Of a DNA stretch of 64,000 nt, positions 30,644 through 37,712 are shown piece after piece. The notes beneath the pieces were generated by a model. The model was not told the DNA's origin, ran no database searches, and worked only from the letters and a program-made list of their open reading frames with translations. This DNA comes from Hymenobacter caeli (GTDB lineage: Bacteria > Bacteroidota > Bacteroidia > Cytophagales > Hymenobacteraceae), in contig NZ_JABSNP010000005.1 of the NCBI RefSeq assembly GCF_013294115.1, positions 186,001-250,000 of the forward strand. Direction: 5' to 3'. How positions within the stretch are numbered: position 1 is the first letter of the stretch; each line of letters begins with the position of its first letter. Position numbers and translations under genes: made by a program.

Positions 30644-32749
30644 CTACCAAATCACGGCCCGGTCGGCTGTGGCCCGCGTCATTTTGCTGCCCTCCTGGCA
30701 GCCAAACGCGGCCTGGAACTGCGGCATGTTCATGATGGGGCCGATGGTGCGGTACTGGTCGGGCGAGTGCGGGTCGGTGAGGATTTGCTGGCGCAGGGCT
30801 TCGGGCCGGATGTTGGAGCGCCGCAGCTGGGCCCAGCTCAGAAAAAAGCGCTGCTCGGGCGTGAAGCCGTCGAAGTTGGGCCGGGGCCCCGCGCCGTAGC
30901 GCTGCTGCAATTGCTTCTCCAGGGCCCCGTACACCACGGTGAGGCCGGCGAAGTCGGCCAGGTTCTCGCCCATCGTCAGCTTGCCGTTCACGTGCACCGA
31001 GTCGAGGGGCGAAAACGCGTCGTACTGGCGCCCCACCAGGGCGGCGCGCTTCGTGAACTCGGCCGCGTCGGCGGGCGTCCACCAGTCGCGCAAGTTGCCC
31101 TGGGCGTCGTACTGGCGGCCCTGGTCGTCGAAGCCGTGGGTCATTTCGTGGCCCATCACCCCGCCGATGGCCCCGTAGTTCACCGCGTCGTCGGCCTGGG
31201 GGTCGAAGAACGGCGGCTGCAAGTAGCCGGCCGGGAACACGATTTCGTTCAGCGGCGGGTTGTAGTAGGCGTTGATGGTGGAGGGCGTCATGCCCCACTC
31301 GTTGCGGTCGATGGGGCCCCCGAACTTGGCCAGCTCCTGGCGGCTGTCCCAGGCGCGGGCGGCCAGCAGGTTCTGCACGTAGGAAGCGCGGCTGATGGTG
31401 AGTTGGGAATAGTCCTTCCACACGTCGGGGTAGCCGATTTTCACGTGCAGGGCCCCCAGCTTTTTCAGGGCTTCGGCCTTGGTGGGCGCGCTCATCCAGG
31501 TGTTGGTCTGGATGTGCTCGGCTAGGCTGGCCTTCACGTTGTTCACCATTTCCAGGGCCTTCTGCTTGGCCGCCGGGCTAAAGGCCTGGTCCACGTACAG
31601 CTGCCCGAAGGCCTCGCCCAGGTTCTGGTCGGTGGCGGTTTGCACGCGCTTCCAGCGGGCGGGCTGCTGCTTGGCCCCGGTCAGGGCCTGGCTGTAGGCG
31701 AAGGCCGCGTCGGCGTAGGCCGCCGGCAGCGCCGGGGCCACCGAGCGCACCAAGTGCCAGCGCAGGTAAGTCTTGAGGTCGGCCAGCGGCTCGGTTTTCA
31801 GCACGGTGTTCAGCGCGTCGAAAAACGCCGGCTGGCCCACAATCACCTCTTGCGCTTTGCCCAGCTGCTGGGCCGCCAGCAGGCGCGCGGGGTCGAGGGC
31901 CGGGTAGCGCTTTTGGGCGGCGGCCAGGGCCATTTGGTTGTAGTTGGCCTGCGGGTCGCGCAGCTCCACACGGGTGCGCGAGTCCTTGGCCAGGCGCGTT
32001 TCGATGCGCTCCACGGCCGCGGCGTTGCGGGCCGCTTCGGCGGGCGTATCACCCAGCAGGCCAAATACCTGCGCCATGTACGCACGGTACGCCGCCTTCA
32101 CCTTGGCCGTGCGCGCGTCGTCTTTAAAGTAGTAATCCCGGTCGGGCAGCGTGAGGCCGCCCTGGTCCATTTGCACCACGTAGCGGGTCGTATTCTTCTC
32201 GTCGACCTGCACCCCGCCGCGGAAGAATACGCCCGTCTGCAGCTCGTGCTCGTGGGCGATGAGGGCGGGCAATTGCATCCGGTCGCGCAGCCCAGCAATG
32301 CGGGCCAGCTCGGGCCGCAGGGGCCCCAGGCCGGCCCGCTCGATGGCCGCCGTGTCCATGGCCGCGGCGTAGAAGTCGCCCACTTTCTGGGCGTTCGAGC
32401 CGGGGGCGGCGCTACGGTTGGCCGCGGCGTCCTCCAATATCTGGCGCAGCAGTTTTTGGGTGCGTTCGCCGAGCAGGTTGCGGGGGCCCCAGCGCGAGGC
32501 GTAGTCGGGCAGCGGGTTGTTCTTGAGCCAATTGCCGCCCGAAAACTGGTAGAAGTTATCGCACGCGTCCACCGTGCGGTCAAGGTCGGCCACGTCGAGG
32601 CCCACGCCTTTCGGGGCGGGCGCGGCAGGTGGAGCGGCGGGGCTAGCGGCCGGCGGGGCCACCGCCGTGGTGGCCGGGGCGCTGCCGGCGCAGCCAGCCA
32701 GGGCCAGCGCCGTGGCTACCAAGCCAGCGCAAAGAGGTGCTTTTATCAT
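30644..32749 (-). CDS. M13-family (neprilysin-like) zinc metallopeptidase, lipoprotein
   Basis: 701 residues. The N-terminus (MIKAPLCAGLVATALALAGC) is a lipoprotein signal with lipobox LAGC, followed by an Ala/Pro-rich linker. The M13 N-domain spans about 50-440. The catalytic domain holds NAYYNPPLNEIVFPAGYLQPPFF, the zinc motif HEMTH near residue 533 and the third ligand in GENLADFAGL near 593. It ends in the family's conserved TRATADRAVIW. It should cleave oligopeptides outside the inner membrane. It is divergent from the aromatic leader region; the two share the 137-bp gap 32750-32886. Confidence 0.9.
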   Translation of the reverse strand: MIKAPLCAGLVATALALAGCAGSAPATTAVAPPAASPAAPPAAPAPKGVGLDVADLDRTVDACDNFYQFSGGNWLKNNPLPDYASRWGPRNLLGERTQKLLRQILEDAAANRSAAPGSNAQKVGDFYAAAMDTAAIERAGLGPLRPELARIAGLRDRMQLPALIAHEHELQTGVFFRGGVQVDEKNTTRYVVQMDQGGLTLPDRDYYFKDDARTAKVKAAYRAYMAQVFGLLGDTPAEAARNAAAVERIETRLAKDSRTRVELRDPQANYNQMALAAAQKRYPALDPARLLAAQQLGKAQEVIVGQPAFFDALNTVLKTEPLADLKTYLRWHLVRSVAPALPAAYADAAFAYSQALTGAKQQPARWKRVQTATDQNLGEAFGQLYVDQAFSPAAKQKALEMVNNVKASLAEHIQTNTWMSAPTKAEALKKLGALHVKIGYPDVWKDYSQLTISRASYVQNLLAARAWDSRQELAKFGGPIDRNEWGMTPSTINAYYNPPLNEIVFPAGYLQPPFFDPQADDAVNYGAIGGVMGHEMTHGFDDQGRQYDAQGNLRDWWTPADAAEFTKRAALVGRQYDAFSPLDSVHVNGKLTMGENLADFAGLTVVYGALEKQLQQRYGAGPRPNFDGFTPEQRFFLSWAQLRRSNIRPEALRQQILTDPHSPDQYRTIGPIMNMPQFQAAFGCQEGSKMTRATADRAVIW

Positions 32750-32886
32750 GCTGCGAAAGTAGAATCTTTGACGGAAAAAACTGTACTAACGCCAGTTAGT
32801 TATGGACCCTGGGGGCAATCTTTTTCTTCACTTGCTAGGATATTCCAGTATCCGCCCGCAACTTGCCGCCGCAAACACTCCCCCGC

Positions 32887-32940
32887 ATGCCCCGCACCAG
32901 CTACTTTTTTGGCTTTTATTACTTCTACGCCGCCGCGTAG
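32887..32940 (+). CDS. Leader peptide 1 of the aromatic amino acid operon (Phe/Tyr attenuation)
   Basis: A 17-residue open frame, MPRTSYFFGFYYFYAAA, ending in TAG at 32938. Eight of 17 residues are aromatic: Tyr at 6, 11, 12, 14 and Phe at 7, 8, 10, 13. It is followed at once by an antiterminator/terminator pair and lies about 250 bp before the prephenate dehydratase gene. The well-known precedent is the pheL leader of enteric bacteria, which is also short and Phe-rich. Stalling at these codons when charged tRNA-Phe or tRNA-Tyr is scarce would leave the segment just after the stop free to pair. Expression is inferred; no classical Shine-Dalgarno is seen, as is common in Bacteroidota. Confidence 0.8.
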   Translation: MPRTSYFFGFYYFYAAA

Positions 32941-32979
32941 AACGAGCCACCGTGTAGCCCACCGCTAGCGCCGCTCGTT
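32941..32979 (+). promoter_or_regulatory. Antiterminator hairpin of attenuator 1
   Basis: AACGAGC (32941-32947), which starts directly after the leader 1 stop codon, is perfectly complementary to GCTCGTT (32973-32979). A small 4-bp stem (32955-32958 with 32964-32967) can form inside the loop. The right arm overlaps the upper stem of the terminator at 32967-32998, so the two structures exclude each other. A ribosome resting at the leader stop would cover the left arm; one stalled on the Phe/Tyr codons would not. Confidence 0.65.
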
Positions 32980-32998
32980 CTTCGGGAGGCGCTTTTTT
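32967..32998 (+). terminator. Intrinsic terminator of attenuator 1
   Basis: AGCGCC (32967-32972) pairs with GGCGCT (32988-32993), extended by CTCG/CGGG (32974-32977 with 32983-32986) around a TTCTT loop, and is followed by six T. The lower stem is GC-rich, as for a rho-independent terminator. It lies between leader peptide 1 and leader peptide 2, so it would stop transcription before the operon. Confidence 0.75.
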
Positions 32999-33021
32999 AA
33001 TGCCTGCTTTTCTTTACGCCG

Positions 33022-33108
33022 ATGCTTACTGCCCCCGCTTTTTATTATTTCGGCTACCGCAGCTTCTTCTTTTTTAAGAAGAACCGGGCCTGCCGTTGCG
33101 GGTGCTAA
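33022..33108 (+). CDS. Leader peptide 2 of the aromatic amino acid operon (Phe/Tyr attenuation)
   Basis: A 28-residue open frame starting MLTAPAFYYFGYRSFFFFKK and ending in a short Cys/Arg tail. Phe is at 7, 10 and 15-18, Tyr at 8, 9 and 12. The four consecutive Phe codons (33064-33075) make a strong stalling point. It sits between terminator 1 and terminator 2. An overlapping frame from 33000 to 33077 is Leu-rich and less aromatic, so I prefer this one. As with leader 1, function is inferred from codon content and position. Confidence 0.75.
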   Translation: MLTAPAFYYFGYRSFFFFKKNRACRCGC

Positions 33109-33142
33109 TTAATCAGCACACTTCCTCAACCCAGCAAGGCCC
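33086..33142 (+). promoter_or_regulatory. Antiterminator pairing of attenuator 2
   Basis: Three helices line up: GGGCC (33086-33090) with GGCCC (33138-33142), TTGC (33096-33099) with GCAA (33134-33137), and GGGT (33100-33103) with ACCC (33129-33132). The pairing takes up the 5' strand of the terminator stem at 33138. The left strand lies in the last codons of leader 2, so a ribosome at the stop codon would mask it, while a ribosome stalled on the Phe run would leave most of it free. Confidence 0.6.
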
Positions 33143-33165
33143 CCGGACTTCCGGCGGCCTTTTTT
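33138..33165 (+). terminator. Intrinsic terminator of attenuator 2
   Basis: GGCC (33138-33141) pairs with GGCC (33156-33159) and CCGG (33143-33146) with CCGG (33151-33154) around a 4-base loop, with one C/C mismatch, followed by six T (33160-33165). It ends 26 bp before the prephenate dehydratase ATG, so read-through of this hairpin is needed for expression. Confidence 0.75.
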
Positions 33166-33191
33166 ATTGTCGTTTTTTACTCCCCACTGCC

Positions 33192-34061
33192 ATGCGCGTT
33201 GCCATCCAGGGTTTCCAGGGAAGTTTCCACCAAGTAGCCGCCGGCCAGTACTTCGGGACGGCCGCGGCGTTGAGTTTCTGCGCCACCTTCGGCGAAGTGG
33301 TGGCCCAGGCAGCCGACGGCCGCGCCGATGCCGCCCTCATGGCCATGGAAAACTCACTGGCCGGCAGCATTCTACCTAATTATTTACTGTTGGAGCGGGC
33401 CGACCTCACCATCACCGGCGAGGTGTACCTGCCCATTCACCAGCACTTGCTGGCGCTGCCCGGCACTACGCTGGCCGACGTACTAGCGGTGCACTCGCAC
33501 CCCATGGCCCTGCGCCAGTGCGGCGATTTCCTGGCCCAGTACCCCCACTGGCAGCTCGTTGAAACCGAAGACACCGGCCTCAGCGCCCAGCTGCTGGCCG
33601 AGCGCCAAACCCCAGGCGTGGCCGTGGTGGCGGGGGCCCAGGCGGCCGCGGCGTTCGGCTTGCAATTGCTGGCCCCCGCCATTCACGACGACCCGCACAA
33701 TTACACCCGGTTCCTGGTGCTGGAGCGGGCCCCGGAAGCCCAGCCCGTAGCCGCGCCCGACAAGGCTTCGCTGTATTTCTACACCTCGCACGCGCCGGGC
33801 TGCCTGGCCCAGGTGCTCACGCTGGTGGCCGCCCACGGCCTCAACCTGAGCAAGTTGCAGTCGTGCCCCCGCCCCCGCCAGCCCTGGCACTACGGCTTCC
33901 ACGCCGACGTAGAATTCGACAGCCCCGCCCAATTATCCACACTGCTGCAAGAGCTGCCCCGCGTGACGGAGGAGCTGCGCGTGCTGGGCGTGTACCAGCG
34001 CGGCAGCATGGAATTTGGGGAATTAGTGACGGACAGCAAGGCGCTGGCGGGTAATAGATAA
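33192..34061 (+). CDS. pheA: Prephenate dehydratase
   Basis: 289 residues; converts prephenate to phenylpyruvate, the committed step to phenylalanine. The catalytic domain (1-180) has VAIQGFQGSFHQVAA, MAMENSLAGSILPNYLLL and the TRF motif in DDPHNYTRFLVLE. The C-terminal ACT domain (about 195-275) includes SLYFYTSHAPGCLAQVLTLVAAHGLNLSKLQSCPRPRQPWHYGFHADVEF, the site where phenylalanine normally binds as feedback inhibitor. It has no chorismate mutase domain; that activity is fused to DAHP synthase at the end of the operon. The ATG at 33192 is chosen because the family motif VAIQG starts there and because it clears terminator 2. Confidence 0.92.
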   Translation: MRVAIQGFQGSFHQVAAGQYFGTAAALSFCATFGEVVAQAADGRADAALMAMENSLAGSILPNYLLLERADLTITGEVYLPIHQHLLALPGTTLADVLAVHSHPMALRQCGDFLAQYPHWQLVETEDTGLSAQLLAERQTPGVAVVAGAQAAAAFGLQLLAPAIHDDPHNYTRFLVLERAPEAQPVAAPDKASLYFYTSHAPGCLAQVLTLVAAHGLNLSKLQSCPRPRQPWHYGFHADVEFDSPAQLSTLLQELPRVTEELRVLGVYQRGSMEFGELVTDSKALAGNR

Positions 34062-34076
34062 GACTATCATAAAGCC

Positions 34077-34167
34077 GTCATGCTGAGCGCAGTCGAAGCA
34101 TCTCTCCCGCTGAATAAATGATTAATTACTGCTGCGGGAGAAATACTTCGACTGCGCTCAGCATGAC
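34077..34167. repeat. Palindromic repeat, GTCATGCTGAGC family
   Basis: Two 34-bp arms (34077-34110 and 34134-34167) are inverted copies with two mismatches, separated by 23 AT-rich bases. A further half-copy reads TGCTTCGCTGCGCTCTGCATGAC at 34201-34223. The element fills the gap between pheA and the aminotransferase gene and would form a long RNA hairpin within the operon transcript. Confidence 0.8.
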
Positions 34168-34290
34168 AACCTAATTAATTAATTAGTTAAGCAGAAAAAG
34201 TGCTTCGCTGCGCTCTGCATGACGTTCTAATTAATTACAAAGCCCAATTGATAACTGCCAACTGATAATTATTGACTGTCAACTGAATTT

Positions 34291-35493
34291 ATGAACGTCT
34301 CCGTAGCCAGCCGCCTCAGCCACACCGGCGAATACTATTTCTCGCGCAAGCTGCGCGAGCTGGCGGCCCTCAACGCGGCGGGGGCCAACATCATCAGCCT
34401 GGGCATCGGCAGTCCCGATTTGCCGCCCCACCCGAGCGTGACGGCGGCGCTGGCGGCCACGGCGGCGCTGCCCAACGCCCACGGCTACCAGAGCTACCAG
34501 GGCACGCCCGCCCTGCGCGGGGCCCTGGCCGAGTTCTACCAGCGCCACTACGGCGTGGCCCTCGACCCGGCCACCGAAATCCTGCCGCTGCTGGGCTCGA
34601 AAGAAGGCCTGATGCACATTGGGATGACGTTTTTGGAAGCCGGCGACGCGGTGCTCATCCCCAACCCCGGCTACCCGACCTACCGCGCCGTGGCCGAAAT
34701 CTGCGGGGCCGAGGTGCGCGCGTACGACTTGACCGCCGCTACCGGCTGGTTGCCCGACCTGGGGGCCTTGGCGGCCACCGACTTGTCGCGAGTGAAAATG
34801 ATGCTGGTGAACTACCCGCACATGCCCACCGGCACGCCGGCCGGCCGGCCATTCCTCACCGAGCTGGTGGAATTTGCTCGCGCCCACGACATCCTGCTGG
34901 TGCACGACAACCCTTATGGCTTCGTCTTGAACGAGACGCCACCCACCAGCTTGTTGTCCGTGCCCGGCGCCAAGGACGTGGCCCTGGAGCTGAACTCGCT
35001 GAGTAAGTCGCACAACCTGGCCGGCTGGCGCGTGGGGGCCCTGGTGGGCCGCGCCGATTGGCTGGCCGCCGTGCTCCGCTTCAAAAGCAACATGGATTCG
35101 GGCATGTTCCTGCCCGTGCAACAGGCCGCCGTGGCGGCCCTGGCGCTGGGCGACGACTGGTTTCAGGAGCTAAATGCCACTTACCGCGCCCGCCGCACGC
35201 TGGTCGTTGAGTTGCTGCAAGCGTTGGGCTGCGCACCGGCCCCGGGCCAGGTAGGCCTCTTCATCTGGGCCCCCGTGCCGCCGTCTTACGCCGACGGCTA
35301 CGCCCTGAGCGATGCCGTGCTGGCCGAAGCCCGGGTATTTTTGACGCCCGGCGGCATTTTTGGCAGCAACGGGCTGGGCTACATCCGGGCCAGCCTGTGC
35401 CAGCCAGAAGCCTTGCTGCGCGAGGCCCTGGCCCGGGTTGTGGCAATGCAAAAAGGCCAGCGCAGCGAAGTCGTTCTTCCACTGGTTAATTAA
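34291..35493 (+). CDS. Pyridoxal-phosphate aminotransferase, class I/II
   Basis: 400 residues, fold type I. IISLGIGSPDLPPHPSV at the N-terminus, GYQSYQGTPALRGALAEFYQRHYGV, PNPGYPTYRA, MLVNYPHMPTGTPA (with Asn), LLVHDNPYGF and the PLP lysine in LNSLSKSHNLAGWRVG near residue 239. Between prephenate dehydratase and prephenate dehydrogenase it most likely transaminates phenylpyruvate and 4-hydroxyphenylpyruvate (or prephenate), completing Phe and Tyr synthesis. The YPHMPTG segment replaces the more common YPxNPTG, a minor change. Confidence 0.88.
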   Translation: MNVSVASRLSHTGEYYFSRKLRELAALNAAGANIISLGIGSPDLPPHPSVTAALAATAALPNAHGYQSYQGTPALRGALAEFYQRHYGVALDPATEILPLLGSKEGLMHIGMTFLEAGDAVLIPNPGYPTYRAVAEICGAEVRAYDLTAATGWLPDLGALAATDLSRVKMMLVNYPHMPTGTPAGRPFLTELVEFARAHDILLVHDNPYGFVLNETPPTSLLSVPGAKDVALELNSLSKSHNLAGWRVGALVGRADWLAAVLRFKSNMDSGMFLPVQQAAVAALALGDDWFQELNATYRARRTLVVELLQALGCAPAPGQVGLFIWAPVPPSYADGYALSDAVLAEARVFLTPGGIFGSNGLGYIRASLCQPEALLREALARVVAMQKGQRSEVVLPLVN

Positions 35494-35716: not shown

Positions 35717-36562
35717 ATGACCGTTACCATCATCGGCTTGGGACTCATCGGCGGCTCGCTGGCGCTTAGTCTGCGGCAGCACGGGCTGGCGGCGCACCTC
35801 ATCGGGGTGGAGCAGAGCGCCGAGCACGCCCGCCGGGCCCTGGAGCTGGGTTTAGTGGACGAGGTAGAAACCGACTTGTCCGCCGCCGTGCGCCGCGCCG
35901 ACCTCGTGGTGGTGGCCGTGCCCATGGATGCCATGCTGACCGTGCTGCCCCAGGTGCTCGACGCCACGGGGCCCCAGCAGACGGTGATTGACGTGGGCTC
36001 GACCAAGGTGACGCTGCTAGCGGCCGTGGCCGGGCACCCGCGCCGCGGCCGCTTCGTGGCCACGCACCCCATGGCTGGCACCGAATATTCGGGCCCCGAG
36101 GCCGCCGTGCTGGGCCTTTACGAAGGCAAAACGGTGGTGCTCTGCGACACCGGCCACAGCGACGCCGACGCCTTGCAGCTGGTCGAGAAGCTGTTCCGGG
36201 CCCTGCCCATGCGGCTGCTCTACCTCGATGCGCAGGCCCACGACCTGCACACGGCCTACGTGTCGCACATCTCGCACATCACCTCGTTTGCCCTGGCCCT
36301 CACCGTGTTGGAGAAGGAGAAAGAGGAACAGCGCATTTTTGATCTGGCCGGCGGCGGCTTTGCTTCCACCGTGCGGCTGGCCAAAAGCTCGGCGGCCATG
36401 TGGGTGCCCATCTTCCGCCAGAACCGGCCCAACGTGCTCGACGTGCTCGACGAGCACCTGCACCAGCTCCAGCACCTGCGCGACTTACTGGCGCAGGAAG
36501 ACTACGCCGGGCTGACCGACCAAATCCACCAAGCCAACCACATCCGCAAGACCATTCCCTAA
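35717..36562 (+). CDS. tyrA: Prephenate dehydrogenase
   Basis: 281 residues; oxidatively decarboxylates prephenate to 4-hydroxyphenylpyruvate. The NAD-binding Rossmann start is VTIIGLGLIGGSLALSLRQ; VVVAVPMDAM, VIDVGSTKV and FVATHPMAGTEYSGPEAA with the conserved THPMAG(T) follow. SHISHITSFALAL holds substrate-site histidines. There is no ACT or chorismate mutase domain, so feedback control must come from elsewhere. It is the third gene of the operon and runs 79 bp before the DAHP synthase gene. Confidence 0.92.
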   Translation: MTVTIIGLGLIGGSLALSLRQHGLAAHLIGVEQSAEHARRALELGLVDEVETDLSAAVRRADLVVVAVPMDAMLTVLPQVLDATGPQQTVIDVGSTKVTLLAAVAGHPRRGRFVATHPMAGTEYSGPEAAVLGLYEGKTVVLCDTGHSDADALQLVEKLFRALPMRLLYLDAQAHDLHTAYVSHISHITSFALALTVLEKEKEEQRIFDLAGGGFASTVRLAKSSAAMWVPIFRQNRPNVLDVLDEHLHQLQHLRDLLAQEDYAGLTDQIHQANHIRKTIP

Positions 36563-36641: not shown

Positions 36642-37712
36642 ATGTTCGACAAACTTTTCAACCGCCAACCCAACGACAAGCCGTTCCTCATCTCAGGGCC
36701 CTGCTCGGCCGAAACCGAAATCCAGGTACTAGAAACCTGCCAGCGTTTGGCCGCCACCGGCAAAGTGCAGGCCCTGCGCGCCGGCATCTGGAAGCCGCGC
36801 ACCAAGCCCGGCGGCTTCGAGGGCGTGGGGGCCAAGGGCCTGCCCTGGCTGAAAAAAGCCAGTGAGCTGACCGGCCTGCCCGTGGCCGTGGAAGTGGCCA
36901 CCGCCAAGCACGTCGAAGACTGCCTGGCCTTCGGCGTGGACCTGGTCTGGGTGGGCGCGCGCACCACCGGCAACCCGTTTTCGGTGCAGGAAATTGCCAA
37001 CGCGCTGCGCGGCGTGGACATTCCGGTGCTGGTAAAAAACCCCATTCATCCCGAGCTGGAGCTGTGGGTGGGGGCCATCGAGCGCCTGCAAAAAGCCGGC
37101 TTGAAGCAGGTAGGCATGATTCACCGCGGCTTTTCGAGCTACGGCAACACCGACTTCCGCAACGCGCCGATGTGGCACCTGCCCATCGAGATGAAGCGCC
37201 GCCTGCCCGAGCTGCCCATCCTCAACGACCCCAGCCACATCTGCGGCCGGCGCGACACGCTGTTTGCCGTGGCCCAGCAGGCCCTGGATTTGGACTTCGA
37301 CGGAACGATGATCGAGAGCCACATCGACCCCGACAAAGCCTGGAGCGACGCCAAGCAGCAAATCACGCCCGAGGTGCTGGGCCAGCTCATCACCGACCTG
37401 GTGTGGCGGCACGAAACCACCGACAAAGAGGAATTCCTGACGGCCCTGGCCGGCCTGCGCGAGCAAATCAACAACCTCGACGCCGAGGTGATGCAGCTGC
37501 TGGGCCGCCGCATGGCCGTGGCCGAGAAAATTGGCCAATACAAGAAGGACAACGACATCACCATCCTCCAAACCGCCCGCCTCAACGAAATCCTGGCCCG
37601 CAGCAAGCGCCAGGGGGCCCAGGTAGGCCTCACCGAAGACTTCGTGGAGCGCTACATGGAGGCCGTGCACCTGGAATCGGTGCTGCGCCAGGAAAAGGTA
37701 ATGAAGGGCTAG
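36642..37712 (+). CDS. Bifunctional DAHP synthase / chorismate mutase
   Basis: 356 residues. Residues 1-260 are a class I-beta DAHP synthase (ISGPCSAET, RAGIWKPRTKPGGFEGVG, VWVGARTTGNPFSVQEIA, VLVKNPIHPEL, ILNDPSHICGRRD, MIESHIDPDKAWSDAKQQITPE), joining phosphoenolpyruvate and erythrose-4-phosphate. Residues 265-356 are an AroQ-type chorismate mutase (LREQINNLDAEVMQLLGRRMAVAEKIGQYKKDNDITILQ). In related fused enzymes the mutase domain also serves as the regulatory site, inhibited by prephenate or chorismate. As last gene of the operon it both opens the pathway and makes prephenate for the genes upstream. Confidence 0.92.
   Translation: MFDKLFNRQPNDKPFLISGPCSAETEIQVLETCQRLAATGKVQALRAGIWKPRTKPGGFEGVGAKGLPWLKKASELTGLPVAVEVATAKHVEDCLAFGVDLVWVGARTTGNPFSVQEIANALRGVDIPVLVKNPIHPELELWVGAIERLQKAGLKQVGMIHRGFSSYGNTDFRNAPMWHLPIEMKRRLPELPILNDPSHICGRRDTLFAVAQQALDLDFDGTMIESHIDPDKAWSDAKQQITPEVLGQLITDLVWRHETTDKEEFLTALAGLREQINNLDAEVMQLLGRRMAVAEKIGQYKKDNDITILQTARLNEILARSKRQGAQVGLTEDFVERYMEAVHLESVLRQEKVMKG

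Follow-up and report, generated by a model that had tools for sequence, protein, structure and literature searches.

Leader-peptide attenuation is textbook biology, and it is nearly always built from a single unit. Vitreschak et al. reportedly predicted some leader-peptide attenuators in Bacteroidetes/Chlorobi in 2004. Among the closest described systems is enteric pheL-pheA (Rfam RF01859), which likewise places a Phe-rich leader ORF and a terminator/antiterminator upstream of prephenate dehydratase and works by ribosome stalling. However, the enteric leader has one unit with Phe only, whereas the Hymenobacter leader has two units with mixed Phe and Tyr codons, and its operon serves both amino acids. 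The two are also without sequence kinship, the match to the Phe_leader family RF01859 being 20.3 bits, below the curated cut-off of 55.

Tandem attenuators were described in the Salmonella mgtCBR leader, where mgtM and mgtP were called a singular example; its authors set it apart from the metE leader and that leader's two intrinsic terminators (PMC3641672). The mgtCBR leader resembles ours in having two short ORFs that both affect transcription, translated there and predicted to be translated here. In contrast, the two mgtCBR signals differ (ATP and proline) and their effects are additive (PMC3641672), whereas each Hymenobacter unit has a predicted intrinsic terminator of its own and both would sense the same amino acids. 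Tandem T-boxes and riboswitches also place repeated sensors of one signal in one leader, and the T-box signal is tRNA charging, but there the RNA itself binds the tRNA or ligand without a translated ORF (PMC12452182), whereas the ribosome is the proposed sensor here.

For the phylum, Naville and Gautheret stated in 2010 that they knew of no demonstrated case beyond Proteobacteria and Actinobacteria, to which they added Firmicutes (PMC2965389). Short leader ORFs have been noted in Bacteroides thetaiotaomicron (PMC7366714), and the amino acid operons of Flavobacterium psychrophilum carry strong clues to leader-peptide attenuation, with no tandem described in the available text of that paper (PMC9723704). 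The first-pass annotation of our locus knew of no tandem Phe/Tyr attenuator in Bacteroidota. None turned up in the papers that we searched either, although leader-peptide attenuation as such had already been inferred in the phylum (PMC9723704). No report of two complete serial attenuators for the same amino acids was found in the open-access literature. As far as could be searched, the novelty is two complete attenuators in series that are predicted to sense the same amino acids, with tandem Trp units in a sister genus as another case.

Two leader and terminator units upstream of pheA

The window is the whole 64-kb stretch of Hymenobacter caeli DNA that was analyzed. On its plus strand, pheA (prephenate dehydratase, 33192..34061; Pfam PF00800, E 1.9e-51; closest named matches H. 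coccineus at 94% and H. nivis at 93% identity) is followed by a class I/II aminotransferase gene (34291..35493; Pfam PF00155, E 1.8e-58), tyrA for prephenate dehydrogenase (35717..36562; NCBIfam NF006307, 352.7 bits against a cut-off of 295), and a DAHP synthase-chorismate mutase fusion (36642..37712; Pfam PF00793 and PF01817). From strand and order, we assume that the four genes form a single transcript; the gaps on either side of the aminotransferase gene are about 230 and 220 bases. A REP-like palindromic repeat (tcatgctgagcgcagtcgaag ... cttcgactgcgctcagcatga, 34070-34170) between pheA and the aminotransferase gene could mark a transcript end or stabilize the transcript. The upstream neighbor of leader 1 is a divergent gene on the minus strand (30644-32749), so the two terminators described below are not the ends of that gene.

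A probable promoter lies at 32836..32868 on the plus strand, with a TTG-type -33 element (cacTTGcta) and a -7-like element (CAACTTGCC) about 20 nt 5' of leader 1, and it resembles the Bacteroidota consensus TTTG/TAnnTTTG. When 23 relatives were compared by eye, the motif (c/t)(A)nCTTGCC stood about 25 nt 5' of the ATG of leader 1, and a TTG box lay about 20 nt upstream of this motif. A sigma-70 promoter scan gave no match, as is expected for the phylum, and its loop and stem rules passed over terminators 1 and 2 too. To our knowledge, no Shine-Dalgarno sequence is to be expected in Bacteroidota.

All parts of unit 1 proposed in the first-pass annotation were re-found in the raw sequence. Leader peptide 1 (MPRTSYFFGFYYFYAAA, then a stop codon; 32887..32940, plus strand) has 17 residues, including 4 Phe and 4 Tyr in conserved aromatic columns. 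The left strand of antiterminator 1 (GAACGAGC, 32940..32947, plus strand) begins with the final base of this stop codon, and the right strand (GCTCGTTC, 32973..32980, plus strand) lies within the 5' half of a predicted intrinsic terminator (AGCGCCGCTCGTTCTTCGGGAGGCGCT plus six T, 32967..32998, plus strand; predicted fold -16.6 kcal/mol). The pairing had been placed correctly but drawn slightly short (32941-32947 with 32973-32979); it comprises eight perfect pairs, 32940-32947 with 32973-32980.

Unit 2 follows on the plus strand. Its leader peptide (MLTAPAFYYFGYRSFFFFKKNRACRCGC, then a stop codon; 33022..33108) has 28 residues with 6 Phe, four of them consecutive (FFFF), and 3 Tyr, and its aromatic columns are likewise conserved. 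The left strand of antiterminator 2 (33086..33103) consists of GGGCC (33086-33090), TTGC (33096-33099), and GGGT (33100-33103), which pair at exactly the positions first given with ACCC, GCAA, and GGCCC of the right strand (33129..33142), which overlaps terminator 2 in its 5' half. This predicted intrinsic terminator (AGGCCCCCGGACTTCCGGCGGCCT plus six T; predicted fold -17.5 kcal/mol, z -3.2) spans 33137..33165, one base more than the earlier 33138-33165, and the pheA ATG stands behind it at 33192 as originally placed. Because the left strand of antiterminator 2 starts about 20 nt 5' of the leader 2 stop codon, a ribosome at that codon would cover the outer GGGCC helix partly and the inner helices fully. 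The earlier view that such a ribosome hides the left strand in both units therefore stands for unit 1 and for the inner helices of unit 2, but only in part for the outer one. Each unit has an aromatic short ORF, a predicted intrinsic terminator, and a mutually exclusive antiterminator, the last being weaker for unit 2 of the window.

We consider it very probable, from the sequence comparisons and folding models, that this leader holds two complete ribosome-mediated transcription attenuators in series upstream of a Phe/Tyr biosynthetic operon. In each unit, a ribosome would trail RNA polymerase along the short Phe/Tyr-rich ORF. With ample charged tRNA-Phe and tRNA-Tyr, it would reach the stop codon and cover the left antiterminator strand, the terminator would fold, and transcription would stop. 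When charged tRNA-Phe or tRNA-Tyr is scarce, it would stall on the aromatic codons and leave the left strand free, so that the antiterminator could form and the polymerase continue. Full expression would require antitermination twice because leader 2 exists only after read-through of terminator 1. We infer leader translation, real termination, and sensing of tRNA charging; the tandem would tighten repression or sharpen the response, and the two decisions, if independent, might multiply as first proposed.

Occurrence in the window and conservation in Hymenobacter

We scanned both strands of the window for short ORFs with at least 5/10 Phe/Tyr that have a hairpin (-11 kcal/mol or lower) and five T no more than 75 nt downstream. 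Exactly two such units were found in the 64 kb, units 1 and 2, and their pairing upstream of pheA is far beyond chance. The aromatic codon run alone showed no enrichment over a reversed control pattern in a whole-genome search, and its six other exact matches in the genome all lie outside leader/terminator units. What is unusual is the combination and its conservation, not the aromatic codon run by itself.

The pheA gene was located in 107/120 genomes of the genus, and 106 upstream regions were compared. Under a strict call, 74/106 carry two complete units in one leader, conserved together, and 7/106 more (L051, L053, L054, L056, L082, L094, L101) carry both leaders with one unit altered or overlooked by the script. 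The remaining 25/106 have a single unit, with a leader ending in ...FTPPA or TPSA in 18 and in ...SSRAAVL or GSRAAVL in 7. Most of the genus has thus retained the doubled arrangement. On a pheA tree with 41 rows, 4 changes suffice to explain the tandem label, against 13 for shuffled labels. Terminator 1 is kept in nearly all relatives, and terminator 2 is conserved too. The original reading had been made to depend on conserved leader frames and stem pairing in close relatives; the leader frames are conserved, and changes occur on both antiterminator strands across the genus while their positions are retained.

Two departures were observed. In L051, of the H. negativus group, the stop codon of leader 2 is gone, and the frame would cross terminator 2. 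In the single-unit SSRAAVL/GSRAAVL clade (L052, L055, L057, L059, L060, L062, L107), the leader 1 stop codon is shifted downstream past the left antiterminator strand, and a free search per sequence leaves about 3 antiterminator pairs, so that this attenuator may work differently or be in decay.

Aromatic codons are conserved as a class

The aromatic columns of both leaders are 80-100% Phe/Tyr over the 74 tandem genomes. In leader 1, the first base is T in 566/584 cases, the second A/T in 555/584, and the third T/C in 581/584; the leader 2 counts are 492/507, 484/507, and 506/507 (pooled, 97%, 95%, and over 99%). All four Phe/Tyr codons are used, and Phe versus Tyr is often not fixed. Since the variation in these columns is almost confined to the four Phe/Tyr codons, the alignment points to selection acting on the group of aromatic codons, not on DNA or peptide structure. 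In a synonymous-rate test by frame, the leader frame of leader 2 does not have the highest synonymous fraction because Phe/Tyr swaps change the second base.

The same columns bear on whether one unit is mainly a Phe sensor and the other mainly a Tyr sensor, which would make a two-amino-acid AND gate. Over the 74 genomes, leader 2 is slightly richer in Phe than leader 1 (means of 4.9 Phe and 4.2 Tyr against 3.6 Phe and 4.0 Tyr), and leader 2 of the window contains FFFF, as such a division would have it; but the ranges of Phe share overlap widely (0.20–0.63 in leader 1, 0.33–0.75 in leader 2), and Phe and Tyr codons replace one another freely in the conserved columns. The division is not supported because both leaders hold both residues and the residues interchange, and we consider it unlikely.

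Antiterminator pairing and the predicted folding switch

Conservation of the antiterminators is in position more than in letters. The offset of antiterminator 1 to the stop codon is constant in most genomes while the sequence changes on both strands: as the best helix, the clade to which the window belongs has GAACGAGC/GCTCGTTC, a single-unit clade has GAACGAGT/ACTCGTTC, and others have GTCGAG/CTCGAC or GTCGGG/CCCGAC. A formal covariation count was made for this antiterminator. Pairing holds in 71% of cells across 28 distinct fragments and falls to 47% or 35% when the register slides by one column; the register was chosen per sequence between two options, which biases the figure towards pairing. 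Both-side changes amount to 39 cells, against 20.1 (sd 3.6) in shuffles, none of 500 of which reaches 39, in a test that kinship inflates. The free per-sequence helix search is independent of the register choice. For antiterminator 2, the outer helix lies 22-23 nt before the end of the stop codon in most genomes and varies as GGGCCT/AGGCCC, GGCCC/GGGCC, or GCGGGGCC/GGCCCCGC, and the inner helix as TTTGC/GCAAA, TGTTG/CAACA, or CGTTG/CAACG.

The proposed ribosome-stalling switch was reproduced by masked folding, in which the RNA is free from 13 nt onward, counted from the first base of the codon in the A site, an assumed 13-nt footprint. For unit 1 of the window, the modeled terminator probability is 0.00–0.02 at seven of the eight aromatic codons and 0.48 at the last, compared with 0.95 with the ribosome at the stop codon and 0.96 without a ribosome. 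For unit 2, it is 0.48–0.94 when stalled, 0.99 at the stop codon, and 0.94 without a ribosome. At equilibrium, unit 1 of the window is thus predicted to switch clearly and unit 2 weakly. Counting a drop in terminator probability of >0.5 at any aromatic codon as a switch, we found one for unit 1 in 61% and for unit 2 in 62% of the 74 tandem genomes, compared with 8% and 10% when the intervening region was shuffled; under this simple model, 38-39% of the tandem genomes lack it.

These results allow the weight of unit 2 to be judged. It could be a decaying duplicate, leaving only one working attenuator, probably unit 1 as the cleaner switch; the weakly switching unit 2 of the window, its absence from the 18 FTPPA-type and 7 SSRAAVL-type genomes, and the missing leader 2 stop codon of L051 are what one would then see. 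However, the 74 tandem genomes retain the aromatic codons, terminator, and antiterminator position of unit 2 despite sequence change, its switch score exceeds the shuffles as much as that of unit 1, and it is equally intact in another genus of the family (L137, L138). We therefore give this reading a small chance, somewhat below that of separate Phe and Tyr sensors, and prefer two working attenuators in series.

Attenuators elsewhere in the family and phylum

Phe/Tyr units also precede pheA in other genera of the family. A single unit is present in 8/8 g4 and 7/9 g3 genomes, and two units in 3/3 g5, 2/9 g3, and 0/8 g4 of the sampled genomes. The two tandem g3 loci (L137, L138) have sequences unlike the Hymenobacter units; they may have doubled independently or may go back to a shared doubling and have diverged greatly since.

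Other amino acid operons carry leaders of matching composition. Trp leaders stand at trpE in 28/30 family loci, the genome of the window included, and Ile/Leu/Val-rich leader ORFs with terminators at ilvD in 12/29 (L262-L276). The trpE locus of the window's genome (L255, G000:C15) has a single Trp leader (MTAQFTAKAWWWPLRTSGPDSQCAR, then a stop codon) followed by a terminator, with a promoter-like motif (TACCTTTG) upstream. At hisG, short ORFs with runs of five His codons occur about 300-350 nt upstream in L222, L225, and L230, with weak terminators. Attenuation by leader peptides thus seems to be a general feature of the family. In the sister genus g6, two Trp units stand in series before trpE in 5/5 genomes examined (L242, L243, L244, L251, L253), with antiterminators at the stop codon of 5-7 pairs in unit 1 and 7-9 pairs in unit 2; in one example, MNKTQFTHNAWWHTRQN and its stop codon with GGGTGAA/TTCACCC precede MKKVKESGMICWWHQSEDS and its stop codon with TGAACAGCA/TGCTGTTCA, and a separate terminator belongs to each unit. 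Stacking is thus not limited to one operon.

This recurrence also bears on the notion that the ORFs are functional hydrophobic micropeptides, or the hairpins tandem terminators for insulation or sRNA trimming, without ribosome switching. Single terminators are indeed common, but such roles would leave an antiterminator that changes on both sides while fixed relative to the stop codon without a reason, the matching-amino-acid design recurs at trpE and ilvD, and the neighboring gene is divergent; we judge this very improbable. A T-box or other riboswitch binding tRNA or amino acid directly, conceivable as such genes are T-box targets in Firmicutes, is next to negligible, since Rfam gave no T-box or riboswitch match at the 5' region with E up to 5 and nothing relevant above cut-off at a relaxed threshold, and since it leaves the aromatic ORFs unexplained.

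Outside the family, few Phe/Tyr units lie directly before pheA: one in the order (L172) and four in the phylum sample (L185, L199, L200, L202), while in Chitinophagales L329 and L331 have such units by count only. This scarcity is perhaps partly due to pheA often not being the first gene.

Significance of the proposed serial attenuation

The described leader-ORF tandem, mgtCBR, joins different signals, whereas the Hymenobacter series would read the same signal twice. Taking the pheA and trpE loci together, we lean towards the view that Hymenobacteraceae repeatedly stack complete ribosome-mediated attenuators for the same amino acids into a multi-stage gate, in which every later leader would be transcribed only once the preceding one had been read through, with a steeper response than one attenuator would give. 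As a natural experiment, the genus-wide series could show what the second stage brings: repression might be tighter, the response steeper, or noise filtered out; the one-unit genera and clades provide ready comparisons, and L051 is a natural mutant. The predicted attenuators would also lend comparative support to close transcription-translation coupling in Bacteroidota, despite Shine-Dalgarno-independent initiation.
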